Positions 42,729-62,104 of a stretch of DNA of 64,000 nucleotides are shown piece after piece. Positions within the stretch are counted from its first letter, which is position 1. Each line of letters begins with the position of its first letter. Under the pieces are notes generated by a model. That model was not told the DNA's origin. It did not search any database and saw nothing but the letters and a program-made list of their open reading frames with translations. Source of the DNA: Microbacterium atlanticum (GTDB taxonomy: Bacteria; Actinomycetota; Actinomycetes; Actinomycetales; Microbacteriaceae). A program made the position numbers and the translations under genes. Where the stretch lies: contig NZ_CP063813.1 of assembly GCF_015277815.1 (NCBI RefSeq), positions 186,001-250,000 of the forward strand. Direction: 5' to 3'.

Positions 42729-42734
42729 TAGGCT
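42729..42734 (+). promoter_or_regulatory. -10 element for leaderless tag gene
   Basis: TAGGCT, then 6 bases, then GTG 42741. A perfect TTGACA at 42701-42706 lies 22 bp upstream of the -10, longer than the optimum. Confidence 0.5.
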
Positions 42735-42740
42735 GGCGCG

Positions 42741-43316
42741 GTGAGCACCGACGTCCGCCTCGGCGCCGACGGCCGCGCGCGCTGCGCGTGGGTCGGCGAC
42801 GACCCCGAGTACGCCCGCTATCACGACGAGGAGTGGGGCGTTCCGCTGCACGGCGACCGCGCGCTGTTCGAGAAGATGAGCCTCGAGGGCTTTCAGGCTG
42901 GCCTGTCGTGGATCACGATCCTGCGCAAGCGGCCGCGCTTCCGCGAGGTGTTCGCGGGATTCGAGCCCGAGGCTGTGGCCACGTTCGACGACGACGACAT
43001 CGAGCGATTGATGACGGATGCCGGCATCATCCGCAACCGCGCCAAGATCCAGGCCACGATCTCCAACGCCCGGCTGCTCCTCGACCTCGCGCCGGGCGAG
43101 TTCGACGCCTTCATGTGGTCGTTCGCCCCCGCTGCGCATCGTCGTCCCGCGACGCTCGCGGACGTGCCGGCGACGACCCCCGCGTCGGACGCGCTCAGCA
43201 AGGCGCTGCGCAAGCGCGGGTTCCGGTCCGTGGGACCGACCACGATGTACGCCCTGATGCAATCGGCGGGCATGGTCGACGATCACGTCGGAGGCTGCTG
43301 GCGCACGCACCGTTGA
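42741..43316 (+). CDS. tag: DNA-3-methyladenine glycosylase I
   Basis: A 191-residue Tag enzyme that excises 3-methyladenine from alkylated DNA. Hallmarks: RCAWVGDDPEYARYHDEEWG (Cys and His zinc ligands and the catalytic Glu region), FEKMSLEGFQAGLSWITILRKR and the C-terminal GGCWRTHR that completes the zinc site. Full length. GTG 42741 follows TAGGCT by 6 bases, without a ribosome binding site. A UvrA-like gene lies 110 bases downstream on the same strand, so the two may belong to one repair-oriented locus. Confidence 0.95.
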   Translation: MSTDVRLGADGRARCAWVGDDPEYARYHDEEWGVPLHGDRALFEKMSLEGFQAGLSWITILRKRPRFREVFAGFEPEAVATFDDDDIERLMTDAGIIRNRAKIQATISNARLLLDLAPGEFDAFMWSFAPAAHRRPATLADVPATTPASDALSKALRKRGFRSVGPTTMYALMQSAGMVDDHVGGCWRTHR

Positions 43317-43413
43317 CCCGCATCGTGACGTCGGCGGCGCCCTCGGGCGCGACGGTGCTGAAAGGGGAAGAGGTCGAGCAGGATCGAGGAAGCGCGGTGT
43401 CCGCATTGCCGGG

Positions 43414-43419
43414 CATACT
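43414..43419 (+). promoter_or_regulatory. Relaxed -10 element for the UvrA-like gene
   Basis: CATACT, then 7 bases, then ATG 43427; no ribosome binding site. It differs from TANNNT at the first base. Confidence 0.35.
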
Positions 43420-43426
43420 CGTGCGC

Positions 43427-45793: not shown

Positions 45794-45838
45794 TTGTCCC
45801 CATCGTCTGCCTCTGATCTGGGCGATTAGCATCGAGCG

Positions 45839-45976: not shown

Positions 45977-48900
45977 ATGAGGTCTTTCGCATGGCTTCGC
46001 GCGCGCCCGCGCGCCTTCGCGTCGGCAGGCGCGGTCACAGCCGCAGCGGTGACGCTCACCACCCTCGCCTTCGTCTACCAGGGCGTTCCCACTACCGAGG
46101 TCGACCTCCACGACGGCGGCGTGTGGGTGACGAAGCAGTCGAGCCTCATGGTCGGGCACTTCAATCACGAGTCGCAGGTGCTCGACGGCGGACTGCGCAC
46201 CACCAGCGACGACTACGACATCCTGCAGTCCGGCTCCGACGTGCTCCTCGTCGACAAGGCGAACTCGGCGGTCAGCGTGATCGACCCGGGCATGGTGGCG
46301 CTCGCGGGGGCAGCGAGCCTGCCCGGCGATGCCGAGGTCGCACTCGGCGGGTCCACCGTGGCGATCCTCGATCGGGCATCGGGCGACGTCTGGGTGCTTC
46401 CCGTCGAGAGCGCCGGCACCTTCCAGATCGAGGGGTCCGACCCGGTCGCCAACGCCGGGAAGGGGGCGGATGCCGCGGTCGGCGTCGACGGCGTCGTCTA
46501 CGTCGCCTCCTCCGAGACCGCCGAGCTCATCACGATCCGCATGGGCACCGACGACACCCCCGAAGAGCCGGTGCGCACCGGGCTCGCGGGCATCGACGAC
46601 ACGGCGGAGCTGAGCGTCACGGCCGTCGCCGACAAGCCCGTCGTGCTGGACGCGTCGACCGGCACGGTGATCGCCGACGGGCGTGAGACCGTCGTCGACG
46701 GGGGACGCGGCGCCGTGCTTCAGCAGCCGTCCGCGGCGGCGGACGCCGTCTCGCTGTCGACCGAGTCCGCGCTCGTGCGCGTGCCGTTCGACGGCTCCGA
46801 GCCCGCTGCCCTCCCCGCCGGCGGGGACGGCGCGCCGGCCGAGCCGGTGTGGCTCGAGGGCTGCGCCTACGCGGCCTGGAGCGGCTCGGGTCGTTTCGTG
46901 CGCGACTGCGCGGGTGATGCCGACGACCTCACCGTCGGCATCGAGGGCATCGAACCGACCTCCCTGCTGAAGTTCCGGGTGAATCGCGACGTCGTCGTGC
47001 TCAACGACGTCATCGGCGGCGCGACCTGGATGGCCGCGGAGGACATGCAGCGGGTCGACAACTGGGATGACATCACCCCGCCGGAAGGTGAGACCGAGGA
47101 CAGCGAGCAGACGACCGAGGAGACCACCGAGACGGTGCTGCCCGAGCGGTCGGAGGTGAACACCCCGCCCGACGCCAACGACGACGATCTCGGCGTCCGG
47201 CCCGGGCGCACGACGATCCTGCCCATCATGGACAACGACAGCGACCCGGACGGCGACGTGCTGACCGCGCGCGTGCTCGACGGCGATCCGTCCATCGGCG
47301 AGGTGCAGTCGATCGACAACGGCCGGTCGCTGCAGATTGCGGTGGCGGAGGATGCCTCAGGCTCGGCATCGTTCGCCTACGAGATCTCGGACGGCCGCGG
47401 CGGCACCGACACCGCCCGCGTCGCCCTCGCGGTGCGCGGGTGGGACGTCAACGCCGCGCCGGTGCAGAAGCGGGTCACCACCGTCGCCGTCGAGGCCGGG
47501 GGCACGATCACCTACAACGTGCTGCCCGACTGGATCGACCCCGATGGCGACGACGTCTTCCTGGGGTCGGTCGCGCCGGCCGAGGGTGATGAGGCCGACT
47601 TCACCTCCGACGGCCGCATCACCTACCGCGCGGTGGGCGGCACCCAGGGGCGCAAGGACGTCGAGATCACGGTGTCGGACGGCTCCGACGTCGCCGTCGG
47701 CATCATCCGCTTCGACGTGCGGCCCGTGGGATCGATCGACCCGGTGACCAACGCCGACTACATCGCGGTGCGCACCGGACAGACCGCGACCGTCGCCCCT
47801 CTCGCCAACGACGTCGGGGCCGGCCGCGAGCCGCTGCGCCTGGCACGCGTAGACCCCGTCTCGGGCGCCGACATCGTGCCCGACTACGCCAACAAGACGT
47901 TCACCTTCCGCTCGGCGACGCCGGGGACCTACTACGTGCAGTACATGGTCGCCGCGGGCGCGGCGGGCGTCCCCGGCATCGTGCGCGTCGACGTGCTGCC
48001 CGAGGGAGACACCGAGCTCCCGCCCGTCGCGGTGCGCGACGTCGCGCTCCTGCCGAGCGGCGGCGAGGTGCTCGTCAACGTGCTCACCAACGACTCCGAC
48101 CCGTCCGGCGGCATCCTGGTCGTGCAGTCGGTCACCGTCGAACCCAACTCGGGCATCGCGGTCGCGGTGCTCAACCACGAGACCCTGCGGATCAGCGACC
48201 AGGCCGCGCTCTCGGAGCAGGTGCGGATCACGTACCGCATCTCCAACGGCTCCCAGTCGGCCGAGGGCGACGTCATCGTCATCCCGATCCCCGCACCCTC
48301 GCAGCTGCGGCCGCCGGTGGCCAACGACGACCAGGTCGTCGTGCGCGCCGGCGACGTCGTGACGATCCCCGTCCTCGACAACGACTACCACCCCAACGGC
48401 GACGCCATCCACGTCGCCCCCGACCTCATTCCGCCGCTGGTGGAGCCGGAGGACGGCGAGATCTTCGTCTCGCAGGACACCGTCCGCTTCCGCGCAACGG
48501 ACGAGCCCGGCACCGTCTACGCCACCTACGAGGCCGTCGACAGCACGGGGCAGAAGGACGCCGGGTACATCACCATCCAGGTGCTGCCGGTGAACGCCGA
48601 CACGAACGCCGCCCCACGCCCCCGCGACCTGACCGCCCGCGTGCTCGGCGGCAGCCGCGTGCGCATCGCCGTCCCCCTGGACGGCATCGACTCCGACGGC
48701 GACTCGGTGCAGCTCATGGGCCTGGCGTCCTCGCCGGGCAAGGGACGCGTCGTCGAGACCGGCTCGGACTACCTCATCTACGAGGCATTCGACGAGACCG
48801 CGGGGGTGGATGCCTTCACCTACCGTGTCCGCGACCGCCTGGGCGCCGAGGCGACCGCGTCGATCCGCGTCGGCATCGCCCCGCCCGAGGGCGTCAACCA

Positions 48901-51900
48901 GGCGCCGTACGCGGTCAAGGACGCGGTGCTGATGCGCCCCGGCCGTGCGGTCGCGGTGCCGGTCCTCGCGAACGACTCCGACCCCGACGGTGACGAGTTC
49001 GGGCTGATCCGCGACGGGCTGATCCTGCCCGACGTCCCGGGTCTCAAGGCGAAGGTCGACGGCAACCGCGTCGTCGTCACCTCACCGTCCGAGCCCGTCG
49101 AGACCTCGCTGCAGTACACGATCCGCGACGCGCGCGGCGCCGAGGCGAAGGCGGTGCTGCAGATCACGGTGGCAGAAGACGTCCCGCTGCAGCGCCCCAT
49201 CGCCCGCGACGACTACGTCCGCGCCGCCGACGTCGAGGACGGCGTCGTCGACCTCGAGGTGCTCGCCAACGACGAGGACCCCGACGGGACCGTCGACGAT
49301 CTCGAGCTGACGGTCGCCGACGCCGACGCCCGCGTCCTCGCGGACGGCACCGTGCGCATCACGCTCGGCGACCGCGACCGCCTCGCCGGCTACACCATCA
49401 CCGACCGCGACGGGAACGAGGCATCCGCCTTCATCCACATCCCCGCGCTGTCGTCGCTTCCGCCGACCCTCATCAGCACGGACCCGGTCGAGGTCGAGAG
49501 CGGCGAGACCGTCGAACTGCCCCTGGGGGAGCACGTGCGTGCGGCCGGCGGCGGCACGGTGATCATCACCGAGGCGGCCAAGGTCACGGCGGCGCACAGC
49601 GACGGATCGTCGCTCGTGAAGGATCAGACGACGCTCGTGTACACCTCGTCGGCCGGCTACTTCGGGCCCGACGCGATCACCTTCGAGGTGACCGACGGAG
49701 AGGGCCCCGACGACCCGCAGGGCCGCAAGGCGACGCTGACGCTGCCGATCACGGTGCTCCCGCCCGAGAACCAGCAGCCCGCCTTCGTCAACGGGCAGAT
49801 GGATGTCGCGCCCGGTGAGGACCCGGCCGTGCTCGATCTCGCGGGGCTCACCACCGACCCCGATCCGGAGGACGCCGACCGGCTGCGGTTCGAGATCGTC
49901 GGGGGGTCGCCCAGCGGCATGACGGCGCGCATCGAGGGCGCCGAGCTGCAGGTCAGCGCGGCCGCCGACACCCGGAAGGGCACCGGCGCCACGATCGAGC
50001 TGCGCATCACCGACGGCACGACGGATCCGATCGAGGGCTCCGTGAGCGTGCGCGTCATCGCGTCGACGCGCGAGCTTCCCACGGCGAACGATGACATCGT
50101 GCCGGAGGCCGACCAGGGCAGGACCGTGTCGGTGCCGGTGCTCGAGAACGACGTGAACCCCTTCCCGGACACCCCGCTGAAGATCACCACCGCGCTCGTG
50201 GAGACCGGGCAGGGCGACGTCGACTTCGCCGGCAGCGATGTGCGGGTCACGCCCGACGCGAAGTTCTTCGGGACCATGGTGGTCCGCTACCGCGTGCAGG
50301 ATGCGACCGGCGACCCCGACCGCGAGGTCGAGGGACGCATCCGCCTCACCGTGCAGGGCAAGCCCGACGCTCCCGGCACGCCCGTGGTCTCCAGCGTGCA
50401 GGACCGCACCGTCGTGCTGTCGTGGACGCCCCCGGCGAACAACGGCGCCGAGATCGAGCGCTACCTCGTCACCTCCACAGCGGGGAACTACGAGAAGGAG
50501 TGCCTCGCCACGACGTGCACGCTGGACGGTCTCACCAACAACGTCGAGTACAACTTCGTCGTCGTCGCCGAGAACCGCGTCGGCCCGTCCGACCCGTCGG
50601 CGCCGTCCGAGACCGCGCGTCCCGATGCCCGGCCCGACACCCCCGCCGCCCCTGCGCTGCAGTTCGGCGACCGCAGCCTCACGGTGTCGTGGGCGACCCC
50701 CACCACGCCGGGCTCTCCGGTGGAGAAGTACACCCTCGAGATCTCGCCCGCCCCGCCGTCGGGGATGAGCCAGAAGGCCGATGTGGTGGGCAACTCCCTG
50801 GTGTGGGACGGCCTGCAGAACGGCGTCGCCTACCAGGTGCGCGTGCAGGCGCACAACCGCGCGCCCGAGCCATCGAGCTGGAGCACGTGGTCGGTGAGCG
50901 AGATCCCGGCGCGCGCGCCGGACGCCCCCGGCGCGCCCTCGGTGAACCGCCTCGACCCGGTCGGCGACCAGGCGCAGCTGGAAGTCGTGTGGAACCCGCC
51001 CGCCGACAACGGCGACGCGATCTCGAGCTACGAGCTGCAGGTGCTGCAGGGCTCCTCGGTCGTGCGGACGATCACCGGCATCCCCGGCTCGCAGACCCGC
51101 CAGGCAGTCAATGTCACCACCTCGACGACGGACTACACGTTCCGGGTCCGCGCCTCGAACAAGGCTGGCTGGGGCGAGTGGGGCGCGTCCTCGGCTCCCC
51201 GTCGCGCGTTCGGCGTGCCGGGCGCCCCGACGAACGTGCAGGCATCCACTCCGCGCGGCGACAGCACGATCGACGTGACGTTCACACCCGCGGCCGGAAA
51301 CGGTGCGAACGCCGGCGAGCTGCAGTACGAGTACTCGCTCAACGGCGGCGGATGGCAGGCGTTCAGCGGTCGCACCATCGGGGGCGTCGGCAACGGCACC
51401 ACGTACACCGTGCGGCTGCGCGCCTACACCGCACTGGACGGCGTGCGCTACAACGGCGACCCGTCCGCGCAGTCGAACGGGGCGGTGCCGTACGGGCCGG
51501 TGCGCAATCCCGGCGTCTCGGCGACGCGGGACGGCACGAACATCACGTTCCAGTGGAGCGCACCCGCCGAGAACGGCCGCAGGATCACGCAGATGCAGAT
51601 CCGCATCGACGGCGGCGGCTGGCAGAACGTCGCGAACAACGGCTCCCGCACCAACAGCTACGGCTACAGCGAGCGCCACACGATCGACGCGCGCGCGCAG
51701 GATGCCGAGGGCCAGTGGAGCAACGTCGTCTCGGATGCCGCGACCACCGTGGACCGCCCGCGGCCGACGGCGCAGACGGTCAAGGGCGCGTCCGGCAGCT
51801 GGGGCGACTGCTCGTCGGCATCGTGCGCCTACATGGCTGTCGACGTGACGAACTTCCCGGCCGGCAATTACCGTCTGCAGTGCAACGACGGCAACAGCTC

Positions 51901-52036
51901 GTGGGGTGGCGGCAGCACGACGTGGGTGCCGGCGAACGGCCGAGCCCGCGCGAACTGCTACCACGGCTACCCCGGCGCCCGTGTCTGGGTGACCATCGTG
52001 GGCTGGGGCGACGCCGCGCCGATGAACTGGTACTAG
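45977..52036 (+). CDS. Giant membrane-anchored Ig-like/FN3 repeat protein (PFNA-type FN3 protein)
   Basis: A 2019-residue protein. One membrane helix at about 13-35 with a basic start anchors it; the rest should be outside the cell. Residues about 40-340 look like a beta-propeller-type region; about 395-1460 hold some ten Ig/cadherin-like repeats, several with a NDxDPDGD-like calcium loop (NDSDPDGD twice, NDEDPDGT); about 1462-1930 hold five FN3 modules (KPDAPGTPVV, APDAPGAPSV, VPGAPTNV starts); about 1935-2019 form a Cys-rich end module (GDCSSASC, RLQCNDGN). There is no sorting signal. GGAGGCCGAGG precedes ATG 45977. It heads the nine-gene cluster and is its likely surface target or sensor. 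Confidence 0.92.
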   Translation: MRSFAWLRARPRAFASAGAVTAAAVTLTTLAFVYQGVPTTEVDLHDGGVWVTKQSSLMVGHFNHESQVLDGGLRTTSDDYDILQSGSDVLLVDKANSAVSVIDPGMVALAGAASLPGDAEVALGGSTVAILDRASGDVWVLPVESAGTFQIEGSDPVANAGKGADAAVGVDGVVYVASSETAELITIRMGTDDTPEEPVRTGLAGIDDTAELSVTAVADKPVVLDASTGTVIADGRETVVDGGRGAVLQQPSAAADAVSLSTESALVRVPFDGSEPAALPAGGDGAPAEPVWLEGCAYAAWSGSGRFVRDCAGDADDLTVGIEGIEPTSLLKFRVNRDVVVLNDVIGGATWMAAEDMQRVDNWDDITPPEGETEDSEQTTEETTETVLPERSEVNTPPDANDDDLGVRPGRTTILPIMDNDSDPDGDVLTARVLDGDPSIGEVQSIDNGRSLQIAVAEDASGSASFAYEISDGRGGTDTARVALAVRGWDVNAAPVQKRVTTVAVEAGGTITYNVLPDWIDPDGDDVFLGSVAPAEGDEADFTSDGRITYRAVGGTQGRKDVEITVSDGSDVAVGIIRFDVRPVGSIDPVTNADYIAVRTGQTATVAPLANDVGAGREPLRLARVDPVSGADIVPDYANKTFTFRSATPGTYYVQYMVAAGAAGVPGIVRVDVLPEGDTELPPVAVRDVALLPSGGEVLVNVLTNDSDPSGGILVVQSVTVEPNSGIAVAVLNHETLRISDQAALSEQVRITYRISNGSQSAEGDVIVIPIPAPSQLRPPVANDDQVVVRAGDVVTIPVLDNDYHPNGDAIHVAPDLIPPLVEPEDGEIFVSQDTVRFRATDEPGTVYATYEAVDSTGQKDAGYITIQVLPVNADTNAAPRPRDLTARVLGGSRVRIAVPLDGIDSDGDSVQLMGLASSPGKGRVVETGSDYLIYEAFDETAGVDAFTYRVRDRLGAEATASIRVGIAPPEGVNQAPYAVKDAVLMRPGRAVAVPVLANDSDPDGDEFGLIRDGLILPDVPGLKAKVDGNRVVVTSPSEPVETSLQYTIRDARGAEAKAVLQITVAEDVPLQRPIARDDYVRAADVEDGVVDLEVLANDEDPDGTVDDLELTVADADARVLADGTVRITLGDRDRLAGYTITDRDGNEASAFIHIPALSSLPPTLISTDPVEVESGETVELPLGEHVRAAGGGTVIITEAAKVTAAHSDGSSLVKDQTTLVYTSSAGYFGPDAITFEVTDGEGPDDPQGRKATLTLPITVLPPENQQPAFVNGQMDVAPGEDPAVLDLAGLTTDPDPEDADRLRFEIVGGSPSGMTARIEGAELQVSAAADTRKGTGATIELRITDGTTDPIEGSVSVRVIASTRELPTANDDIVPEADQGRTVSVPVLENDVNPFPDTPLKITTALVETGQGDVDFAGSDVRVTPDAKFFGTMVVRYRVQDATGDPDREVEGRIRLTVQGKPDAPGTPVVSSVQDRTVVLSWTPPANNGAEIERYLVTSTAGNYEKECLATTCTLDGLTNNVEYNFVVVAENRVGPSDPSAPSETARPDARPDTPAAPALQFGDRSLTVSWATPTTPGSPVEKYTLEISPAPPSGMSQKADVVGNSLVWDGLQNGVAYQVRVQAHNRAPEPSSWSTWSVSEIPARAPDAPGAPSVNRLDPVGDQAQLEVVWNPPADNGDAISSYELQVLQGSSVVRTITGIPGSQTRQAVNVTTSTTDYTFRVRASNKAGWGEWGASSAPRRAFGVPGAPTNVQASTPRGDSTIDVTFTPAAGNGANAGELQYEYSLNGGGWQAFSGRTIGGVGNGTTYTVRLRAYTALDGVRYNGDPSAQSNGAVPYGPVRNPGVSATRDGTNITFQWSAPAENGRRITQMQIRIDGGGWQNVANNGSRTNSYGYSERHTIDARAQDAEGQWSNVVSDAATTVDRPRPTAQTVKGASGSWGDCSSASCAYMAVDVTNFPAGNYRLQCNDGNSSWGGGSTTWVPANGRARANCYHGYPGARVWVTIVGWGDAAPMNWY

Positions 52037-52085
52037 CCGCGGCATCCGCCATCTGCACTTCCCGCAACGAGAGAACGAGACGAAC

Positions 52086-53057
52086 ATGACGATGACCCCC
52101 GAACAGGCGGCCTGGTTCCAGAGCACCTTCGCGCGACTGGTCGACAACGTCGATCAGGCCCTGATGGGCAAGCGCGAGGTGGTGGGCCTGGTGCTCTCGG
52201 CCATGCTCGCCGAGGGCCACGTGCTGCTCGAGGATGCCCCTGGCACCGGCAAGACCAGCCTGGCCAAGGCGCTCGCGGCCACCGTGCAGGGGACGAGCAG
52301 CCGCATCCAGTTCACGCCGGACCTCCTCCCCTCGGACGTCACCGGCGTCACGATCTACGACCAGGCCTCACACCGGTTCGAGTTCCACCGCGGTCCGGTC
52401 TTCGCCTCGATCGTGCTCGCCGACGAGATCAACCGCGCGTCGCCCAAGACCCAGTCGGCGCTGCTGGAGGTGATGGAGGAGTCTCGGGTCACCGTCGACG
52501 GCGTCGCCCACGACGTCGGCCGGCCGTTCCTCGTGATCGCGACCCAGAACCCGATCGAGCAGGCCGGCACCTACAAGCTGCCCGAGGCGCAGCTGGACCG
52601 CTTCCTGGTGAAGACGTCGATCGGCTACCCCGACCTCGCGGTGGCCGAGCGCATCCTCGCCGGCGCGGCCGACCGCAACCCGTCGGCCCACCTGCCCGCG
52701 ATCATCACGACGGGCGCCGTCGCCGACATGGCCGATCTCGCCGCGACGGTGCACGTCGACCCCGCCGTGCTGCGCTACACCGCGCAGCTGGCCGAGGCGA
52801 CGCGCGACGACGCCGCGACGCGATTGGGCGTCTCGGTCCGCGGCTCGCTGGCGATGATCCGCGTCGCCAAGGTCTACGCCGCCGCGCAGGGTCGCCACTT
52901 CGTGCTGCCCGACGACGTCAAGGCGCTCGTCGCGCCGGTGTGGACCCACCGCATCGTGCTCGACCCCGAGGCCGAGTTCGCCGGAACGACGGCCGAGACC
53001 GTCGTCGCACGCGTGCTGGACGCCGTCGCCGCACCGCAGGCGAGGTCCGCGGCCTGA
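52086..53057 (+). CDS. MoxR-family AAA ATPase
   Basis: A 323-residue MoxR-type ATPase: Walker A APGTGKTSLAK near residue 50, the PSDVTGV and GPVFASIVLADEINRASPKTQSALLEVMEE block (Walker B near residue 110) and ATQNPIEQAGTYKLPEAQLDRF (sensor 1), then a helical lid. MoxR proteins act as chaperones with DUF58 and VWA proteins. It starts 50 bases after the giant gene with only a weak ribosome binding site. Its stop overlaps the next ATG by one base (TGATG). Here it may help fold or place the giant protein or the transglutaminase-fold protein. Confidence 0.93.
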   Translation: MTMTPEQAAWFQSTFARLVDNVDQALMGKREVVGLVLSAMLAEGHVLLEDAPGTGKTSLAKALAATVQGTSSRIQFTPDLLPSDVTGVTIYDQASHRFEFHRGPVFASIVLADEINRASPKTQSALLEVMEESRVTVDGVAHDVGRPFLVIATQNPIEQAGTYKLPEAQLDRFLVKTSIGYPDLAVAERILAGAADRNPSAHLPAIITTGAVADMADLAATVHVDPAVLRYTAQLAEATRDDAATRLGVSVRGSLAMIRVAKVYAAAQGRHFVLPDDVKALVAPVWTHRIVLDPEAEFAGTTAETVVARVLDAVAAPQARSAA

Positions 53058-54319
53058 TGGCGACGGAGGCACTCGGGCAGGCGACGGTCGCAGAGGATCG
53101 GCGCGCGCAGCAGGGCGAGCTGGCGCTCGCCGCGCTGCGGCGCGCCGGTGCCGTGCTCGGCCGCGTCTTCGGGGTCGTGCGCCCCGCCGCCTGGGTGCTG
53201 ATCCTCGGCGCGATCGCGCTGTGGGTCTTCGGGCAGGCGCTCGGGTGGTGGGAGCTGACCGCCGCCGCGGTCGTGGTGGCCGCCGTGCTCGTGCTCTGCC
53301 TGCTGTTCCTCATCGGGCGCACCGCGTACGACGTCTCGCTGGACCTCAACCGCACCCGGGTGGTCGTCGGCGAGCGTGCCGTGGGAGCGCTGACGCTCGC
53401 GAACACGGGCTCCCGCGCGATCCTGCCGTCGCGCGTGGTGCTGCCCGTCGGCAACGGGCGCGGCGTGTTCGACGTCAACCGGCTCGCGGCCGGTGAGTCC
53501 GCCGAGGAGCTCTTCGCCATCCCCACCACCCGCCGGGCGGTGGTCAAGGTCGGACCGGTCAGCGTCGTGCGCGGCGATCCCCTCGGCCTCTTCGAGCGCG
53601 TGCACCGCCGGGACGAACCCGTCGACCTCTTCGTGCACCCGCGCACCGTGCTGTTCGACGGCCAGTCGCTCGGCTTCCTCCGCGACCTGGAGGGCCTTCC
53701 CGCCGCCGATCTCTCGCCCGACGACGTGTCGTTCCATGCCCTGCGCGAGTACCAGCCGGGCGACGACCTGCGGCACGTGCACTGGAAGTCGACGGCGCGC
53801 ACCGGCCACATGATGGTCCGGCAGTACGAGGAGACCCGTCGCTCCCACTTCGTCATCGGGCTGTCGACGAACCCTGCGGACTACCGCGACGACGAGGAGT
53901 TCGAGCTCGCGATCTCGGCGGCCGGCTCGCTGGGCCTGCGGGCGCTGCGCGACTCGCACCGTGTCGAGGTGCGGGTGCAGGAGCGCGCGCTCCCGTCCGG
54001 CACGGGCAAGCAGTTCCTCGACTCGCTGTCGGCGCTGCAGGCGTCCAAGCCGCGCGGCGGACGCATCGTCGAGCTCGCCGGCTCGGTCGCCGCCAGCCTG
54101 CCGCTGGCCAGCGTGGTGGTGCTGGTCTGCGGCAGCCGCGTCGACGCCAACGACCTGCGCACCGCGTGCAGCCGCCTGCCGTTCGGCGCGCGCGTGCTCG
54201 CCGTCGTCGCCGCGTCGTCGCAGACGTCACCGTCGCTCCGGCGCATCGGGGAGGCCGATGTGGTCACCCTCGGCACGCTCGAGCAGCTGCCGCGCGCGCT
54301 GCGGAAGGTGCTGGCATGA
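53057..54319 (+). CDS. DUF58 domain protein
   Basis: A 420-residue membrane protein. Two helices at about residues 37-85 (WVLILGAIALWVFGQALGWW and TAAAVVVAAVLVLCLLFLIG) are followed by a beta-rich domain, and the DUF58 core near residue 230 carries LREYQPGDDLRHVHWKSTART, the diagnostic stretch of the family. The rest resembles a VWA-like fold. DUF58 proteins nearly always pair with MoxR. It overlaps the MoxR gene by one base and the next gene by four (ATGA), so all three are coupled. Confidence 0.92.
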   Translation: MATEALGQATVAEDRRAQQGELALAALRRAGAVLGRVFGVVRPAAWVLILGAIALWVFGQALGWWELTAAAVVVAAVLVLCLLFLIGRTAYDVSLDLNRTRVVVGERAVGALTLANTGSRAILPSRVVLPVGNGRGVFDVNRLAAGESAEELFAIPTTRRAVVKVGPVSVVRGDPLGLFERVHRRDEPVDLFVHPRTVLFDGQSLGFLRDLEGLPAADLSPDDVSFHALREYQPGDDLRHVHWKSTARTGHMMVRQYEETRRSHFVIGLSTNPADYRDDEEFELAISAAGSLGLRALRDSHRVEVRVQERALPSGTGKQFLDSLSALQASKPRGGRIVELAGSVAASLPLASVVVLVCGSRVDANDLRTACSRLPFGARVLAVVAASSQTSPSLRRIGEADVVTLGTLEQLPRALRKVLA

Positions 54320-56853
54320 CCGCCCCCGCCTCGCTGCGTGCACGCGGCTCCCGCCAGGAGCGCACGTCTCCCGCGCCGATGCCGCGCCCCGTCGCACCCC
54401 CGGTCGAGCCGCTGCCCGTGCGCCGCTGGATCCTCGACCTCGGGGCCGTGGTCGCACTGCTCCTCGTGCCCATCATCGGGTTCCAACCGACCTTCGACGG
54501 CCCGAGGTACCTCGTCGCTGCGCTCGGCGCGCTCCTGCTCGGCGTGGGGATCGCGGTGCTGGGTCGCGTGCTGCGGTGGGGCATCCTGCTCCTCGCGGGC
54601 GCGACGGTCGTGGGGTACTTCCTCTTCGGCGGGGCGCTCGCGCTGCCGCACACCACCGTCGCGGGCGTCATCCCGACCCTCGAGACGCTCCGGCTGCTCG
54701 GGCTCGGCACCTTCACGTCCTGGAAGCAGCTGCTGACAACGATCGCGCCCGTCGCGACCGGCGACGGGCACCTGATCGTCCCGTTCCTGCTCACGCTCGT
54801 CGCCGCGGTTCTCACCGCGTCGCTGGCGCTGCGCCTGCGCTCGGCCGGATGGGCGCTGATCCCGGCCGCGGCGTTCCTCGCGATCGAGATCGCGCTGGGC
54901 ACGTCCGAGCCGATCGTGCCCGTCGTGCAGGGCATCGTCTTCGGGCTCGTCGCGGTGACGTGGCTGGCGGTGCGGCAGGCGTGGCAGCCGCAGACGGCGG
55001 CGATCTCGGTCGGCGAGGGCACCGGCGCTCGCGGCGCCGGCACCCGACGGCTGCTGATGGGGGCCGGCGTCATTGCGCTCGCCGCGGTGATCGGCGCCGC
55101 GACCAGCGCGTTCGCGGCGCCGACGGCACCCCGGTACGTGCTGCGCGACATCGTGATCCCGCCTTTCGACGTCCGCGAGTTCGCGAGCCCCCTGCAGTCC
55201 TTCCGCGCGTACGTGCGAGACCACCCCGACGAGGCGCTCTTCACCGCGCGCGGGCTCCCCGAGGGGGCGCGCGTGCGCCTGGCGACGATGGACGCCTACA
55301 ACGGCACCGTCTACAACGTCTCGGATTCGGGCACGGGCAGCTCGAGCGCCTTCACTCCCGCGCGCACCAACATGTCGGCGGACGCCGAGGGGACGCCCGC
55401 GACGGTGCACGTCGAGATCGGCGCACTGGAGGGCGTGTGGATGCCGGAGGCCGGCGCCGTCCGCAGCGTCACGTTCGACGGCGCCCGGGCCGACGACCTC
55501 CGCCGCACCGCCCACTACAACGAGTCGACGAAGACGGCCGTGGTGACGGCCGGGCTGGAAGCGGGCGACGAGTACACGCTCGAGGCGGTCGTCCCGGAGG
55601 TCCCGAGCGACGCGCAGCTCGGAGACCAGGCGTTCGCGCCGCTGAAGATGCCCAAGCAGGAGGGCGTGCCCGAGTCGCTCGCCGAAATCGCGTCGGAGGC
55701 CGTCGCGGAGGCCGAGACCCCGATCCAGCAGGCGCGCGCGCTGCAGCAGATGCTCTCGGAGGGCGGGTACTTCAGCCACGGCCTCACCGGCCAGCCGCTG
55801 TCGCGCGCCGGGCACGGCGCCGAGCGCATCTCGACGCTGCTGGGATCGCAGCAGATGGTCGGCGACGACGAGCAGTACGCCACGGCGATGGCGCTGCTTG
55901 CCGGCCAGGTGGGCATCCCCGCACGCGTCGTCATGGGTTTCTATCCCGCCGAGGACGAAGCCGCACAGGGCGTGTTCACGGCCACGGGAGACACCCTGCA
56001 CGCGTGGGTCGAGGTCGCCTTCGAGGACGCCGGATGGGTGCCCTTCGACCCGACGCCGCCCGAGGACCAGGTACCCAGCGACCAGACGACCAAGCCCAAG
56101 GCCGATCCCAAGCCGCAGGTGCTGCAGCCGCCGCCCCCGCCGCAGGAGCCGGTCGACCTGCCTCCGACCGTCGCGGACGACCGCGGCTCGGAGGACGAGA
56201 ACGGCTTCGACGCGGCGCTGCTGTGGACCATCGTCAGCATCGGCGTCGGGATCCTCGGCCTCCTGGCCGTGCTCCTCGCGCCCTTCGTCGTCGTCGGCGC
56301 GTTGAAGGCAGCCCGCCGCCGCCAGCGGCGCGAGGCCGCGCGGGCCTCGGACCGCATCTCGGGCGGCTGGGACGAGCTCGTCGACCGCGCGTCGGACTTC
56401 GGCGCTCCGGTGCGTGCCGGCGCGACGCGTCAAGAGGATGCGGGCGTGCTGACCGCGGCGTTCGCCGAGCCGCGCGTGACGATGCTCGCCTCCCGGGCGG
56501 ACGCCCAGGTGTTCGGCCCCGCCGAGCCGACGCCCGACGACATCGAGGCGTTCTGGACGCAGGTCGACGAGATCGTCGGCGGAATGGGCGCCGGCAGATC
56601 GCTGTGGCAGCGGCTGCGCGCGCGGCTCAGCATCCGGTCTCTCCTCGCGGGCACGCGGTTCGCGCTGCCGGCCCGCGCGCCCCGTCCTGCGCGGCCGGCC
56701 CGCGCGGTGCCGATGACGGATGCCGCGTCCGCCGGCGCCCCGCACGCCGCGCCGACGGCCGAGGCGCGGGCGACGCGCGCCTCGCGCCGTCGATCCGCCC
56801 CGACGCGGAAGGCATCGGAGCCCTCCGCCCGTCCTGCACAGGAGTCCGAATGA
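54316..56853 (+). CDS. Transglutaminase-fold membrane protein lacking the catalytic Cys
   Basis: An 845-residue protein: about six N-terminal membrane helices up to residue 275, an extracytoplasmic region with the transglutaminase core at about 500-585, another helix near 640 and a cytoplasmic Arg/Ala-rich tail. The core normally reads G-x-C-E-Q-F-A...H-A-W-V-E...D-P; here it is GDDEQYATAMALL, DTLHAWVEV and FDPTP. His and Asp remain but Cys is Asp (residue 518, codon 55867-55869). It is therefore probably a non-catalytic or altered member of the TgpA-like family. It overlaps both neighbours by four bases. Confidence 0.88.
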   Translation: MTAPASLRARGSRQERTSPAPMPRPVAPPVEPLPVRRWILDLGAVVALLLVPIIGFQPTFDGPRYLVAALGALLLGVGIAVLGRVLRWGILLLAGATVVGYFLFGGALALPHTTVAGVIPTLETLRLLGLGTFTSWKQLLTTIAPVATGDGHLIVPFLLTLVAAVLTASLALRLRSAGWALIPAAAFLAIEIALGTSEPIVPVVQGIVFGLVAVTWLAVRQAWQPQTAAISVGEGTGARGAGTRRLLMGAGVIALAAVIGAATSAFAAPTAPRYVLRDIVIPPFDVREFASPLQSFRAYVRDHPDEALFTARGLPEGARVRLATMDAYNGTVYNVSDSGTGSSSAFTPARTNMSADAEGTPATVHVEIGALEGVWMPEAGAVRSVTFDGARADDLRRTAHYNESTKTAVVTAGLEAGDEYTLEAVVPEVPSDAQLGDQAFAPLKMPKQEGVPESLAEIASEAVAEAETPIQQARALQQMLSEGGYFSHGLTGQPLSRAGHGAERISTLLGSQQMVGDDEQYATAMALLAGQVGIPARVVMGFYPAEDEAAQGVFTATGDTLHAWVEVAFEDAGWVPFDPTPPEDQVPSDQTTKPKADPKPQVLQPPPPPQEPVDLPPTVADDRGSEDENGFDAALLWTIVSIGVGILGLLAVLLAPFVVVGALKAARRRQRREAARASDRISGGWDELVDRASDFGAPVRAGATRQEDAGVLTAAFAEPRVTMLASRADAQVFGPAEPTPDDIEAFWTQVDEIVGGMGAGRSLWQRLRARLSIRSLLAGTRFALPARAPRPARPARAVPMTDAASAGAPHAAPTAEARATRASRRRSAPTRKASEPSARPAQESE

Positions 56854-57407
56854 GCGTGAGACCCACCGGGCCGGTCGCCGACCTGGCGTGGCTGTTCCAC
56901 GACGCCCGAGCGGCGGCGGCCGGAGCCCGGCCGGCGACCCGTCCGTCCCTGGCCGGAGCAGCGACGCCCGCCTCGACCTCGGCGCGCGAGGCGACGGTCG
57001 TGGGGCACCCCGACGACGACGTCGAGGCGACCCACCCGGCCGCGCCGCCGCCCGCGCAGCGCGCAGCCCTCTACCCCGAGGCGCCCGTCGTCGTCGTGCT
57101 CACCTGGGACGACGGCGCGCGGATGGCCGTCTACGGCCGCACGCGGTACGGGCGCAACCCGGCGCCGGCGCCCGGGGCGGTGGCGATCGCGGTGCGTGAC
57201 GAGACCCTCTCGCTGTCCAAGGAGCACTTCGAGATCGGTGGCGACACCGCGGGGGCGTGGGTGACCGACCTGCACTCGACGAACGGCACCGTGCTCGTCC
57301 GCGACGGCCACCGCATTCCCCTCACGCCGGGCCTTCCGACGACGCTCCGCCCGGGGGACGGCCTCGAGCTCGGTGATCGCCGCCTCACCGTGGGGGCGGG
57401 CCGATGA
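56850..57407 (+). CDS. FHA domain protein 1
   Basis: A 185-residue cytosolic protein. The first 80 residues are Ala/Pro-rich and disordered, with SAREATVVG near residue 49, a possible phosphothreonine site. The C-terminal half is an FHA domain: YGRTRYGRNP (Gly-Arg of the pThr pocket), LSLSKEHFEI (Ser and His) and DLHSTNGTVLV (Asn-Gly), all key residues intact, so it should read phosphothreonine. It overlaps the upstream stop by four bases (ATGA); AGGAG lies 5 bases before the ATG. It precedes the phosphatase in the same transcript. Confidence 0.9.
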   Translation: MSVRPTGPVADLAWLFHDARAAAAGARPATRPSLAGAATPASTSAREATVVGHPDDDVEATHPAAPPPAQRAALYPEAPVVVVLTWDDGARMAVYGRTRYGRNPAPAPGAVAIAVRDETLSLSKEHFEIGGDTAGAWVTDLHSTNGTVLVRDGHRIPLTPGLPTTLRPGDGLELGDRRLTVGAGR

Positions 57408-58258
57408 CCGGATCGGTGCCTCCCATCGCACTCGCGTTCGGCGCGGCCACCGACCCGGGCCTGCGACGCCGGGTCAACGAGGACTCCTACCTCGCCGCCG
57501 CCCCGCTGTTCCTCGTCGCAGACGGGATGGGCGGCCACAACGCCGGCGAGATCGCCAGCGCGACCGTGATCGAGGAGTTCGCCGCTCTGGCGGGCCGGGA
57601 CAGCCTGGCGATCGACGACGTCCACACCGCGGTGCGGGAGGCACGCCGACGCGTCGCGGCGCTTCCTCCCGGCGGCGGCGCGGGGGCGGGCACGACCCTC
57701 GCCGGTGTCGTCGTCGCCGACGTCGACGGCGAGGGCTACTGGCTGACGGTCAACCTCGGCGACTCCCGCACCTACCGGCTCAGCCGCGGCCGGCTCGAGC
57801 AGGTGAGCGTGGACCACTCGGTCGTGCAGGAGCTGATCGACAGCGGCGAGCTCGCGGCCGAGGCCGCGCAGCGGGACGCGCGCCGCAACGTCATCACCCG
57901 CGCCATCGGGGCCGGCAGCGACGCCGAACCGGACTACTGGCTCATCCCCGCCGAGGACGGCGACCGCATCCTGGTGTGCTCCGACGGCCTCTCGGGCGAA
58001 CTCGAGAAGGACGCCATCCACGGCATCCTCGTCACCGAGTCCGACCCGCAGTCGGCGGCGACGAGGCTGGTGCACGAGGCGATGGTGCGCGGCGGGCGAG
58101 ACAACATCACCGCGATCGTCGTCGACGCGCTCTCGGTGCGGAGCCGGGCGAGCGGGGCTGCCGAACGCGATACGGTGCCGGTGAGCGCCCCCACCGCTCC
58201 CGTCGCCGACATCGACGGCGACACGCTGCCGCGCGCAGCGGCCACAGGAGGTCTCTGA
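57404..58258 (+). CDS. PP2C-family Ser/Thr phosphatase
   Basis: A 284-residue protein phosphatase of the PstP/PrpC type, here without a membrane helix. All metal-binding motifs are present: RRVNEDSYL, VADGMGGHNAGE, LGDSRTYRL, VCSDGLSGE and GRDNITAIVVD. It would dephosphorylate the kinase of this cluster and its targets, setting the balance of the pathway. The N-terminal two-thirds and motifs are full length; a short disordered tail follows. It overlaps FHA protein 1 by four bases and FHA protein 2 by one. Confidence 0.94.
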   Translation: MTGSVPPIALAFGAATDPGLRRRVNEDSYLAAAPLFLVADGMGGHNAGEIASATVIEEFAALAGRDSLAIDDVHTAVREARRRVAALPPGGGAGAGTTLAGVVVADVDGEGYWLTVNLGDSRTYRLSRGRLEQVSVDHSVVQELIDSGELAAEAAQRDARRNVITRAIGAGSDAEPDYWLIPAEDGDRILVCSDGLSGELEKDAIHGILVTESDPQSAATRLVHEAMVRGGRDNITAIVVDALSVRSRASGAAERDTVPVSAPTAPVADIDGDTLPRAAATGGL

Positions 58259-59694
58259 TGCCGACGCTGTACGCCCCCGGCCCGACACCGGTCGCCGTCA
58301 CGCCGCGCGGGTTCGTCGCGCTCGAGGCGGGCGCCTCCGCCGCGCTCCTCGCGCGGATCCGGTCGCAGCTGGTGGACGGCCGCGGCCTCGGCGGCGTCAT
58401 CGAAGCCCTCACCGGCGCCTACGGTGCGTCGCTCACGGCCATTCCCGCGTTCGCCGTCGCCCTGTGGGAGGGTGACGGCGTCCGCGTCGCCGTCCGCGGC
58501 GACTTCGCGTTCGACCTCACGGCGGCAGCGGCCGAGCAAGTTTCGGGCGCCGGCGTCACGACCTGGACCGAGCGGGTCATCCCGGACGTTCAGCGCATCG
58601 CGCTCGCGACGCCGCAGACGGATGCCGCCCCCGCCGAGTTCGAGATCGCCGACGGTGTCGTGCTGGCGGGCAGCGTCGCGTGGGCTGTGCCCGGAACGGG
58701 CGACCGTCACGAGGCGAGGTCGACCGGCGGCGTCGCGGTCGCCCCGGCCGCGGCCCCGGCCGCGCCCGAGGACTCTCCGAGCGTGCCGACCCCCGCCACG
58801 TCCGAGCCCGTGGCCCCTGCTCCCCCCGTCACCGCCGAGCCCGTCGCGCCTGCGACCCCCGCCACGGCCGCGCCCGCGATCGCCGCCGCGCCGGTGCTCC
58901 CCACTGCGACCCCCGCCGTGCCCGCGACCCCCGCCGCACCGCCACCTGCGGGCCGAGCGGTCCCGGTCGCGCCGGGGGTGACGCTCATCGACTCCGGCTC
59001 GGTGCCGTCGGTGGCCGACGCCGAGACGCTGCTGCCCTTCGACTCCGCCCTGCACCCCGCGTCCACCGACAGCGCGGGCGCCGACGACGCGGAGCCCGAC
59101 GACGACGCCGGCTTCGACGCCGAGGTCGGCGCCACCGTCCTGCGTCCGCTCGACGAGCCCGGCCCTGTCCGCGGCGGCGGGGGGTCCGCGCCCGGAGTCC
59201 CCACGGCGGTGATCGGCGACCACGACGGCGCCACCATCTCCCTCGCCCAGGCTCGCGCGCTCCGCGCCGGAGCCTCCGATGAGGCCGCGGGTGAGGCATC
59301 CGCTCTCCCGTCCGATTCCGCCCCGGCACCGCTCGCTCCGCCGCGTCCTCCGGCCCCGGGGCGTGTGCGGCTCTCGACGGGCCAGCTGGTCGCGCTCGAC
59401 CGCACCGTCGTCATCGGCCGCCGCCCGCGCTCCACTCGGGTCAGCGGCACCGACCTGCCGCACCTCGTGGCAGTCGACAGCCCCCAGCAGGACATCTCGC
59501 GCAGCCACGTCGAGCTCCGCGTCGAGGGCGAGAGCATCGTCGCGACCGATCTGCGCACGACCAACGGCACCACGCTGCTGAGGCCGGGCGCCGACCCGGT
59601 GCGGCTGCACCCCGGGGAGGGGACCGTGGTGGTCCCCGGCGACGTGCTCGACCTCGGCGACGGCGTGACCGTGCACATCGAGGCGCCGTCGTGA
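58258..59694 (+). CDS. FHA domain protein 2
   Basis: A 478-residue cytosolic protein. Residues about 10-130 form a small alpha/beta domain of unknown role (RGFVALEAGASAALL, IPAFAVALWEGDGVRVAVRG); residues about 160-250 are a Pro/Ala/Thr-rich linker; 275-300 carry possible phosphothreonine sites (AETLLP, GATVLRP); residues about 380-475 form an FHA domain with VVIGRRPRS, ISRSHVELR and DLRTTNGTTLL, key residues intact. It resembles the kinase linker in its TVLRP motif. ATG 58258 overlaps the phosphatase stop by one base; AGGAGG lies 5 bases upstream. Confidence 0.88.
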   Translation: MPTLYAPGPTPVAVTPRGFVALEAGASAALLARIRSQLVDGRGLGGVIEALTGAYGASLTAIPAFAVALWEGDGVRVAVRGDFAFDLTAAAAEQVSGAGVTTWTERVIPDVQRIALATPQTDAAPAEFEIADGVVLAGSVAWAVPGTGDRHEARSTGGVAVAPAAAPAAPEDSPSVPTPATSEPVAPAPPVTAEPVAPATPATAAPAIAAAPVLPTATPAVPATPAAPPPAGRAVPVAPGVTLIDSGSVPSVADAETLLPFDSALHPASTDSAGADDAEPDDDAGFDAEVGATVLRPLDEPGPVRGGGGSAPGVPTAVIGDHDGATISLAQARALRAGASDEAAGEASALPSDSAPAPLAPPRPPAPGRVRLSTGQLVALDRTVVIGRRPRSTRVSGTDLPHLVAVDSPQQDISRSHVELRVEGESIVATDLRTTNGTTLLRPGADPVRLHPGEGTVVVPGDVLDLGDGVTVHIEAPS

Positions 59695-61358
59695 GCGCCA
59701 AGCGCGCGCCCATGGCGCCGCCGGAGCTCCCCGGCTTCACCTACGTCGACCTGCTCGGCTCGGGCGGTTTCGCCGACGTGTACCTCTACGAGCAGCAGCT
59801 GCCCAAGCGCCGCGTCGCGGTCAAGGTGCTGCTGACCGAGCGCATGTCGAGCGGCTCGGTCGAGGAGTTCACCGCCGAGGCCAACGTCATGGCGATGCTG
59901 TCGACCCACCCGGCGATCGTCACGATCTACCAGGCGGGCGTCGCCGGCGACGGCCGGCCCTACCTCGTCATGGAGTACTGCCCGCGGCCGAACCTCCAGG
60001 TGCGGTATCGGCGCGAGGCGTTCTCGATCGCGGAGTCGCTGCGGGTCGGCGTGCAGGTCGCCGCCGCGGTCGAGACCGCGCACCGGGCGGGCGTGCTGCA
60101 CCGCGACATCAAGCCCGCCAACATCCTCGTCACCGAGTACAACCGGCCGGCGCTGACGGACTTCGGCATCGCCTCGACCACGAGCGCGGCCGCCGAGTCG
60201 GCCGGCCTGTCCATCCCGTGGTCGCCGCCGGAGTCCTTCGCCGATGTGCCGCGCAGCGACCCGCGCTCGGACGTGTGGGCGCTGGGCGCGACGGTGTACA
60301 CGCTCCTCGCGGGCCGGTCGCCGTTCGAGCTGCCGGGGCAGCGCAACGGCGCCGCCGAGCTCATCCACCGCATCGAGACGCAGCCGCTGCCCGCGCTCGG
60401 GCGGGCCGACGTGCCGGCCTCGCTGCAGCGGGTGATCGAGCGTGCGATGGCCAAGAACCCCCCCGATCGCCACGAGAGCGCGCTCGCCTTTGCCCGCGCG
60501 CTGCAGACCGTGCAGATCGAGCTCTCGCACTCGGTCACGCCGATCGACATCCTCGACGACCAGCTGCCCGAAGACGTCGAGGCCGATGAGGACGACGGGC
60601 TCACCCGCGTGCGCGGCGTCGTCAGCATCAGCCCCGAGACCGCGCCGGCGGCCGGGGCGACCAGGCCGTCGGCGACGACGGCGCCGAGCGCCGGATCCCC
60701 TCCCGCGTTCGGGACCACCGTCGACGCCGAGACGGTGCTGCGCGCCGCGCCGACCCGACCGGCCTTCGACCAGGCCGACATCGACGAGACGGTCCGGCGC
60801 GGGGGGTCGGGCCCGGCGCTGCCCGACGAGACGGTCCTGCGTCCGCCGGCAGCGCCCGCCGTGCTCGCGCCGGGCCCGTTCGAGACCGCCGCCGCGCCGC
60901 CGGCGGAGACGGAGACGGACGCTGCACCCCGCCGCCCCCGCACGGCGCTGTGGATCGGGCTCGGCGCGGCGGCCCTCGTCGTCGTCGCCGTGATCATCGG
61001 GGTCTCGCTGCCCGGCATGCTCTCGGGGACCGGCCCGGCCGCGACCGAGCCGACGGCCACCTCGCGGCCGCAGGACCCCATCGCCGCGGTCGTGCCGCCG
61101 GTGGTGGGGGTCGCCGGAGCCCCGGCTGATGGGGGCGTGCGGTTCACCTGGACCAATCCCGACCCGCAGGACGGCGACTTCTACATCGTCGAGCTCGTCG
61201 ACCTCGCCGACAGCACACCCGCTGTCGAGACCGTCGAGACCACCGAGATCATCGTCCCCGCGGCCGCCGCCGGGCAGACGTGCGTCGACGTGACACTCGT
61301 CCGCGCCAACGGCACGCAGCAGCAGGATCCCGAGAAGACCAGGGGGTGCGCGCCATGA
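59691..61358 (+). CDS. Transmembrane Ser/Thr protein kinase (Pkb2/PknB-like)
   Basis: A 555-residue Hanks-type kinase. Domain at about 15-275: LGSGGFADVYL (Gly loop), VAVKVL (Lys), HRDIKPANIL (catalytic Asp) and DFG, with SPPE replacing APE. A linker of about 150 residues holds three ETVxR motifs (T348, T367, T381). One membrane helix lies at about 423-448 (ALWIGLGAAALVVVAVIIG), and the extracellular tail of about 105 residues is FN3-like (GVRFTWTNPDPQDGDFYIVELVD), not PASTA. GTG 59691 overlaps the upstream stop by four bases. It is the kinase partner of the phosphatase and FHA proteins. Confidence 0.94.
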   Translation: MSAKRAPMAPPELPGFTYVDLLGSGGFADVYLYEQQLPKRRVAVKVLLTERMSSGSVEEFTAEANVMAMLSTHPAIVTIYQAGVAGDGRPYLVMEYCPRPNLQVRYRREAFSIAESLRVGVQVAAAVETAHRAGVLHRDIKPANILVTEYNRPALTDFGIASTTSAAAESAGLSIPWSPPESFADVPRSDPRSDVWALGATVYTLLAGRSPFELPGQRNGAAELIHRIETQPLPALGRADVPASLQRVIERAMAKNPPDRHESALAFARALQTVQIELSHSVTPIDILDDQLPEDVEADEDDGLTRVRGVVSISPETAPAAGATRPSATTAPSAGSPPAFGTTVDAETVLRAAPTRPAFDQADIDETVRRGGSGPALPDETVLRPPAAPAVLAPGPFETAAAPPAETETDAAPRRPRTALWIGLGAAALVVVAVIIGVSLPGMLSGTGPAATEPTATSRPQDPIAAVVPPVVGVAGAPADGGVRFTWTNPDPQDGDFYIVELVDLADSTPAVETVETTEIIVPAAAAGQTCVDVTLVRANGTQQQDPEKTRGCAP

Positions 61359-62104
61359 CCGTCGCGGAAGCCGACGCGCTCACCGTCGAGTTCGCCGGCG
61401 AGGAGTTCTCGGTCGAACCCGACACGGTCTTCACGGTGGGCCGCGAGGGCGACCTCGCCATCGACGACAACCTGTTCCTGCACCGCAACTTCCTGACCAT
61501 CCAGAACGTGGACGGACTGTGGCTGCTCTCGAACGTCGGGTCGCGGCTGTCGGCCACCGTCACCGACTCGGGCGGGCGGGTGCAGGCCTGGCTCGCACCC
61601 GGCGCGCGCCTGCCGCTCGTCTTCGCCGCGACATCCGTCATCTTCAGCGCCGGCCCGACCACCTACGAGCTGACGATCCACGCGTCCGAGCCGACGTTCC
61701 GCGAGTCGCAGCCCCCGGCCGAGGACGACGGACTGAGCACGATCGGCGAGGTGCCGCTCACGCACAGCCAGCGCGTCATGATCCTCGCGCTCGCCGAGCC
61801 CGTGCTGCGGCGGGACGGCACGGGCATGAGCGAGCTGCCCACGTCGGCGCAGGCCGCCGAGAGGCTGGGATGGACGCTCACCCGGTTCAACCGCAAGCTC
61901 GACAACGTCTGCGACAAGCTCGACAAGATCGGCGTGCCCGGCATGCGCGGCGGGGTGCGCTCCTATGCCACGAACCGGCGCGTGCGCCTGGTCGAGCACG
62001 CGATCGCCGCGCGCCTGGTCACCCGCGAGGATCTGCCGCTGCTCGACATCGAGCGGGAGGCCTCGCTCGGCGGCCAGGGCACGCCTGCCGACGACGACGC
62101 CTGA
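61355..62104 (+). CDS. FHA-like protein 3 with C-terminal helical/HTH-like region
   Basis: A 249-residue protein. Residues about 10-110 resemble an FHA domain (FTVGREGDLAIDDN, LHRNFLTIQNVDGLWLLSNVGS) but the Ser-His/Asn-Gly pair is altered (RNF and SNVGS), so phosphothreonine binding is uncertain. Residues about 130-235 are helical and basic: THSQRVMILALAEPVLR, QAAERLGWTLTRFNRKLDN and VRSYATNRRVRLVEHAIA. A helix-turn-helix followed by a wing is possible, hinting at DNA binding (inference). It overlaps the kinase gene by four bases and ends the cluster. Confidence 0.82.
   Translation: MTVAEADALTVEFAGEEFSVEPDTVFTVGREGDLAIDDNLFLHRNFLTIQNVDGLWLLSNVGSRLSATVTDSGGRVQAWLAPGARLPLVFAATSVIFSAGPTTYELTIHASEPTFRESQPPAEDDGLSTIGEVPLTHSQRVMILALAEPVLRRDGTGMSELPTSAQAAERLGWTLTRFNRKLDNVCDKLDKIGVPGMRGGVRSYATNRRVRLVEHAIAARLVTREDLPLLDIEREASLGGQGTPADDDA

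Follow-up and report, generated by a model that had tools for sequence, protein, structure and literature searches.

This study concerns nine consecutive genes (45977-62104) in a window of 64,000 nucleotides from Microbacterium atlanticum (Microbacteriaceae, order Actinomycetales; contig NZ_CP063813.1, positions 186,001 to 250,000, forward strand). They encode a giant Ig/FN3 protein, a MoxR-family ATPase, a DUF58 protein, a transglutaminase-fold protein (TG), the FHA-domain protein FHA1, a PP2C phosphatase, a second FHA protein (FHA2), a membrane Ser/Thr kinase and a ninth protein that we call LAST. Judging from neighbourhoods and promoter sequences in related genomes, this operon is likely to serve an Actinomycetales type VII secretion system as its module for signalling, envelope building and regulation, and its last gene probably encodes the regulator that controls it. 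The proposed link to type VII secretion is the new element. In literature consisting mostly of papers available without subscription, we found no paper linking the bifidobacterial PFNA gene cluster with type VII secretion, none on Microbacteriaceae together with type VII secretion and FHA, and none that combined three of the four terms WXG100, transglutaminase, serine threonine kinase and MoxR.

The gene for an EccC-type ATPase, which carries an FHA domain, stands immediately 3' of LAST in 17 fetched loci from several families (L033-L038, L093, L094, L100, L103, L105, L106, L107, L108, L112, L122 and L143). L093 and L094 belong to the window's genus, and in L106 and L108 the kinase is missing at that place. 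EccC lies about 6-12 kb from LAST in six loci with the permuted gene order called type B below (L048, L049, L050, L072, L083 and L090). The two genes also occur together across genomes: within the family sample, EccC (E <= 1e-55) was present in 59/75 genomes with LAST vs. 13/124 without it. The window's genome contains just two perfect copies of the dyad TGGGGA-N4-TCCCCA, each before a WXG100-type gene. These two genes share their sequence start, and the first lies directly behind an FtsK/SpoIIIE ATPase with an N-terminal FHA domain (865-874 kb); the EccC FHA domain of this genome has GR, SKRH and NG. Dyad-linked WXG100 proteins were confirmed by Pfam in L105, L106, L049 and L224, and the one in L107 fell just under the cut-off.

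In L224, two WXG100-type genes (9904-10288 and 13957-14337) lie 4 kb from each other, separated by type VII-like genes; they share the dyad, including its spacer ATGG, and their first 70 residues. Immediately 5' of EccC in this locus is a gene (4072-5316) for a membrane protein that has an RDD domain and, at its C-terminus, an FHA domain. Five loci (L062, L065, L066, L067 and L136) have the FHA-HTH gene with no kinase, giant, MoxR, DUF58 or TG gene in the fetched 20 kb, and two of these, L067 and L136, have EccC within 10 kb of it.

The dyad was recognized in upstream regions. It precedes WXG100 genes and, in a minority of loci, the window among them, the operon as well. Over fetched loci, its distance to a following TANNNT element was 23 or 24 nt in 46/147 dyad sides, and any other distance occurred at most three times; this spacing to the -10 element places the dyad centre near -44. 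On both strands of the window, the single dyad (>=8/12) with TANNNT at 23/24 nt is the one before the operon (Table 1). Over both strands of the regulator-bearing loci (2.9 Mb), the combination of dyad (>=10/12) and TANNNT at 22-25 nt occurred 36 times and the reversed pattern once; the same count in Bifidobacterium loci was 1 in 1.7 Mb. Fetched loci held 59 dyad and -10 promoters, 19 of them before WXG100-type genes and 9 before operon genes, a set that is no unbiased regulon because the loci were mostly picked around the regulator or the dyad. Lipoprotein-like products, judged by eye, lie behind such promoters in L228, L232, L246, L248 and L249, and thus the regulon may exceed type VII genes. 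In L149 (G342), the giant gene follows TG instead of preceding MoxR, and a dyad of its own lies upstream of it.

Occurrence of the dyad tracked that of LAST. In the family sample, a perfect dyad was present in 61/75 genomes with LAST vs. 10/124 without (p = 8e-27), with 156 sites (control 5) where LAST is present and 10 (control 7) where it is absent. The same held in the order outside the family (83/107 genomes vs. 26/167; 330 sites, control 13, vs. 28 sites, control 24). The order-level test covered 274 of the 297 genomes, the 23 family genomes being excluded, and scored six weak LAST matches (E 1e-7 to 1e-10, family f16) as regulator-less; the tables of LAST, dyad and EccC presence were transcribed by hand from search listings. 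Among 30 genera with both LAST states, 21 favoured the association, two (g67 and g87) went against it and seven were ties. Since EccC-bearing genomes had the dyad in 49/59 cases with LAST vs. 3/13 without, the dyad follows LAST and not the secretion genes.

LAST is predicted to be an FHA-HTH protein. It had no Pfam match, and its sequence found no significant match among solved structures. In structural models, the N-terminus adopts an FHA fold and the C-terminus a LuxR/NarL-type DNA-binding domain. The fold list for the whole protein was filled by FHA domains and hence uninformative on the C-terminal part; modelled separately, that part matched the LuxR/NarL-type fold along the HTH. The FHA domain is degenerate, the usual SxxH and NGT signature being missing. 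Named relatives among the best 120 LAST matches were nearly all Microbacterium.

The kinase linker carries a strongly non-random array of Thr motifs. We counted T-x-[VILAM]-R preceded by acidic residues 111 times in 51 linkers, vs. 16.7 expected, and 0/500 composition-keeping shuffles reached the observed number, with linkers counted as independent despite their kinship. The linkers came from 60 loci by requiring a protein of at least 420 aa with an HRD motif. As controls, the Ser version was depleted (3 vs. 14.0 expected), and the reversed order was found 6 times (16.6 expected). The window's genome has eight further kinases, six without any such motif and two with a single unlike match. These acidic-x-T-x-x-R arrays are candidate FHA docking sites, and on the reader side the GR/SxxH/NGT-like pattern is kept in 16/20 FHA1 and 51/54 FHA2 relatives. 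Other possible carriers of T-x-[VILAM]-R were discarded: the PP2C tail, FHA1 N-terminus, TG tail, MoxR and LAST linker had no excess, and FHA2 linkers (25 vs. 17.2) and DUF58 (41 vs. 31.3) had a weak one.

Thus, from motif enrichment, gene order, promoter elements and predicted folds, we infer the following scheme. The nine genes would be co-transcribed. The phosphorylation state of the Thr motifs in the kinase linker would be set by the membrane kinase itself and by PP2C, and once phosphorylated these motifs could dock FHA1, FHA2 and the EccC FHA domain. An envelope part serving secretion would be formed or built by the giant Ig/FN3 protein together with MoxR, DUF58 and TG. LAST would bind TGGGGA-N4-TCCCCA about 44 bp upstream of the start sites of the WXG100 genes and the operon, which would make expression depend on the system's state; that it activates and does not repress is a guess from the position of the dyad. 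More speculatively, and with somewhat less than even confidence, we propose an undescribed Actinomycetales type VII subtype. Here the phospho-Thr array of the kinase would be an assembly platform that recruits the EccC FHA domain and two FHA adaptors, MoxR, DUF58 and TG would build a giant Ig/FN3 conduit, and the FHA-LuxR regulator would read the assembly state and turn on WXG100 genes via one dedicated operator; PFNA would be a derived relative in which the phospho-array moved onto MoxR.

The set of genes recurs order-wide, in most cases nearly complete and in two arrangements that are circular permutations of each other. LAST matches were found in 75/199 family genomes and 130/297 order genomes (six of the latter weak). 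A class sample of 148 genomes gave 19 matches at 1e-6, of which 11 had E < 1e-50, seven inside the order and four in two other families. In the 60 loci fetched around LAST, the kinase was also present in 36/40 family loci (39 genomes) and 16/20 order loci, an association beyond chance and in agreement with the earlier note's claim of a coupled, conserved unit. Type A, the order of the window, is giant-MoxR-DUF58-TG-FHA1-PP2C-FHA2-kinase-LAST, and type B is PP2C-FHA2-kinase-LAST-giant-MoxR-DUF58-TG, usually with FHA1 behind TG. Read as a circle, the two are the same order opened at different points. L041 shows a third arrangement, which has the kinase first and can be derived from a tandem type B copy by losing one copy of each gene. 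Signs of duplication are seen in L055/L085 (two partly broken operon copies next to each other; reading frames are split in that genome), L088 (an additional FHA2 and kinase behind FHA1) and L046 (an additional giant gene upstream); together with L041, they fit an operon that rotated through tandem duplication followed by loss. In a tree of MoxR, DUF58 and TG (quick LG+G4 search, midpoint root, 68 rows hand-picked from fetched loci), the type A rows and five 'other' rows of type A order formed one supported group, while type B was not a single group and L041 was nested within it. The earlier note had asked for gene order to be compared across relatives and held that scattered genes would count against it. 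The set is mostly kept, and scattered or incomplete cases partly occur: in draft genomes G164 and G291, LAST and the best MoxR are on separate contigs, and G305, G397 and G460, of the same genus, are without the ninth gene, two of them keeping most of the set together (L129 and L135).

Several observations weigh against the type VII reading and its operator. The dyad of the window is imperfect (10/12), and three genomes of the same genus (G164, G291 and G359) carry the regulator without a perfect dyad. A strict dyad and -10 element precedes operon genes in just 13/31 type B and 2/10 type A loci (in the 13 type B loci, 8 before the giant gene and 6 before PP2C, one locus having both); L033 and L036 have a perfect dyad without the strict element, and a looser rule (>=10/12 within 500 nt) captured 18/52 upstream regions. 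Of the 59 promoters, 31 were classed as 'other'; 9 of these are giant-gene starts by comparison, and several precede products that resemble lipoproteins by eye. EccC was not found adjoining LAST in the type A loci L031, L070 and L101, and 13 family genomes have EccC but not the regulator. In the window's genome EccC is unlinked, about 617 kb off and beside the WXG100 genes, so the type VII link is invisible within the window.

The last point, together with the absence of EccC from the flanks of all 44 Bifidobacterium loci (0/44), is what one would expect if the operon were a stand-alone surface-sensing or adhesion system, as the earlier note had it and as was proposed for PFNA. The giant FN3 protein would then be an adhesin or receptor whose state the kinase and FHA proteins report, and the type VII genes would be mere frequent neighbours. 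Papers on PFNA do report FN3 adhesion and cytokine binding. EccC recurs directly behind LAST, however, EccC and the regulator co-occur, and WXG100 genes and the operon have the dyad in common; we therefore consider a stand-alone system quite unlikely and favour a type VII module.

Two further alternatives concern parts of the scheme. Co-occurrence is not binding, and some LAST genomes lack a perfect dyad (14/75 in the family, 24/107 outside), so another regulator, merely co-inherited, might bind the dyad, with LAST an FHA adaptor that has a different DNA target or none. Against this, the dyad follows LAST among EccC genomes and within genera, and the modelled fold of the LAST C-terminus belongs to the LuxR/NarL-type HTH class, which binds such dyads. 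We regard a different regulator as unlikely. The linker motifs, for their part, might be a by-product of an acidic, Thr/Arg-rich composition or have another role, e.g. autoinhibition, and Arg at +3 is indeed not a common FHA preference. The shuffles kept composition, yet fell far below the observed count, the Ser version was depleted, and among the nine kinases of the genome the operon kinase alone has several motifs. A related motif also crowds the MoxR extension in Bifidobacterium, where MoxR is a reported substrate of the kinase Pkb2 (PMC8430577). Such a by-product, or a role other than FHA docking, appears unlikely. If the type VII module is correct, a widespread, little-studied operon of actinobacteria gains a likely function and a regulator, and kinase/FHA signalling becomes linked with type VII secretion by way of a precise predicted operator. 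The fixed rule of dyad, spacing and -10 would let the regulon be read in other regulator-bearing genomes.

Table 1. Coordinates of the operon, its genes and the predicted control elements in the window.
Feature	Positions	Strand	Remarks
Predicted operator dyad TGGGTGATTGTCCCCA	45787..45802	+	10/12 to TGGGGA-N4-TCCCCA; window's only >=10/12 match
Predicted -10 element TAGCAT	45827..45832	+	24 nt after the dyad
Giant Ig/FN3 envelope protein, 2019 aa	45977..52036	+	one N-terminal hydrophobic segment, residues 15-33
MoxR-family AAA ATPase	52086..53057	+	Pfam AAA_3
DUF58 protein	53057..54319	+	Pfam
TgpA-type transmembrane transglutaminase-fold protein (TG)	54316..56853	+	Pfam TgpA_N and Transglut_core
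FHA1	56850..57407	+	Pfam; GR/SxxH/NGT signature present
PP2C phosphatase	57404..58258	+	Pfam
FHA2, 478 aa	58258..59694	+	long linker, then C-terminal FHA with GR/SxxH/NGT signature
Membrane Ser/Thr kinase	59691..61358	+	Pfam Pkinase; hydrophobic segment, residues 416-448
Kinase linker, Thr motifs LTRVR, ETVLR, ETVLR (T305, T348, T381)	60588..60860	+	
LAST (ninth protein), 249 aa, predicted regulator	61355..62104	+	degenerate FHA ~5-112; LuxR/NarL-type HTH ~131-225

All nine reading frames are open and on the + strand. A 49-nt gap follows the giant gene, and the remaining seven junctions overlap by 1, 4, 4, 4, 1, 4 and 4 bases, so the coordinates agree with the earlier note's nine same-strand genes, gaps of at most 50 bases and seven of eight overlapping junctions. 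The contents are also as named there: Pfam identified the first eight products (the giant protein by Big_9/Cadherin/fn3), and the ninth is FHA-like by its modelled N-terminal fold. The proposed kinase/phosphatase/FHA logic gains support from the Thr-motif array. The idea of three FHA readers fits FHA1 and FHA2, which have the signature, but is not supported for LAST, with neither SxxH nor NGT and with a predicted DNA-binding domain. Upstream on the same strand, 183 nt from the operon, is a gene (42293-45793) for an ABC/SMC-type protein, UvrA-like only on our own reading.

The operon was originally likened to PFNA, whose reported order in Bifidobacterium is pkb2-fn3-aaa-atp-duf58-tgm, in some cases with prpC, a hypothetical gene and fha. 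A search with the Bifidobacterium gallicum DUF58 protein gave 44 loci, all in Bifidobacterium records; 42 have kinase, giant, MoxR, DUF58 and TG, 41 also PP2C (one weak), and the two remaining loci run into a contig end. The likeness is real: kinase, giant FN3 protein, MoxR, DUF58, TG and PP2C are homologous, with an FHA gene nearby, and the five PFNA core genes (kinase, FN3, AAA ATPase, DUF58 and transglutaminase) are all together in the window. In contrast, the kinase is first in PFNA and eighth here, LAST was not found in the 44 loci by the profiles used, the Bifidobacterium rows formed a separate supported group in the tree, and no EccC is nearby. Thus, the homology behind 'the same core' stands, while order and clade differ, and Bifidobacterium PFNA is a homologous but distant relative.

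By order and clade, PFNA was rejected as the operon's direct counterpart. A second locus of the window's genome, L131 (G000:C1:586000-605900), matches the PFNA order better (kinase-giant-MoxR-DUF58-TG), and the kinase is also first in L041. Downstream of TG, L131 has an FHA/DUF5684 protein and then a small separate protein with four DERTALSRRRAA-type repeats of a related Thr motif. The PP2C and additional FHA genes, which the earlier note took as additions to PFNA, are not new here, because an eight-gene form in B. longum already has prpC and fha and is reported to be co-transcribed (PMC8430577); this also rules them out as an innovation of the window's lineage. The Thr arrays are on MoxR in PFNA and on the kinase linker here: the MoxR N-terminal extensions of L151-L194 contain 147 [DE]xTx[LVI] motifs, of EETVL/DATQL type, in 42 proteins (9.1 expected; Ser version 8, 8.3 expected), and may be the sites of the reported Pkb2 phosphorylation. 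PFNA has been described as a sensor of host immune signals, and our results question the view that PFNA-type genes are confined to bifidobacteria and made for that purpose.

Three other described systems share parts of this arrangement. The MoxR-DUF58-transglutaminase (MRP-type) trio (PMC6803598) has the same three genes in the same order, to which the window adds genes for the kinase, phosphatase, FHA proteins, giant protein and regulator. EspM, from pathogenic mycobacteria (Sanchez et al., 2020, PMC7002343), which regulates ESX-1 genes, resembles LAST in its N-terminal FHA and C-terminal HTH (for LAST, by model and fold comparison) and is encoded beside a type VII locus whose genes it regulates, a role only predicted for LAST. 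EspM, however, is in the range of 363 residues, a reported whiB6 repressor and a monocistronic neighbour of esx-1, whereas LAST has 249 aa, lies within a kinase operon and, from the dyad position, may activate; the two are likened by domain architecture alone.

Finally, the T7SSd system (Garrett, Higginson and Palmer, 2024, PMC11217815) shares with the system proposed here WXG100, an FHA-bearing FtsK-type ATPase, a membrane kinase and a large Ig-like envelope protein, and T7SSe further shares a PP2C-type phosphatase and an FHA protein. A term search of that text found no mention of MoxR, DUF58 or transglutaminase for T7SSd/T7SSe, and a dedicated FHA-HTH regulator with its operator is predicted here, unlike in the systems as described there. 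TsdI of T7SSd has a signal peptide and a C-terminal transmembrane helix, whereas the sole hydrophobic segment of the giant protein is N-terminal. A membrane kinase that may correspond to TsdD lies in the operon and adjoins EccC in relatives; in this genome it is away from the ATPase locus. By gene content, T7SSd is the nearest described subtype.

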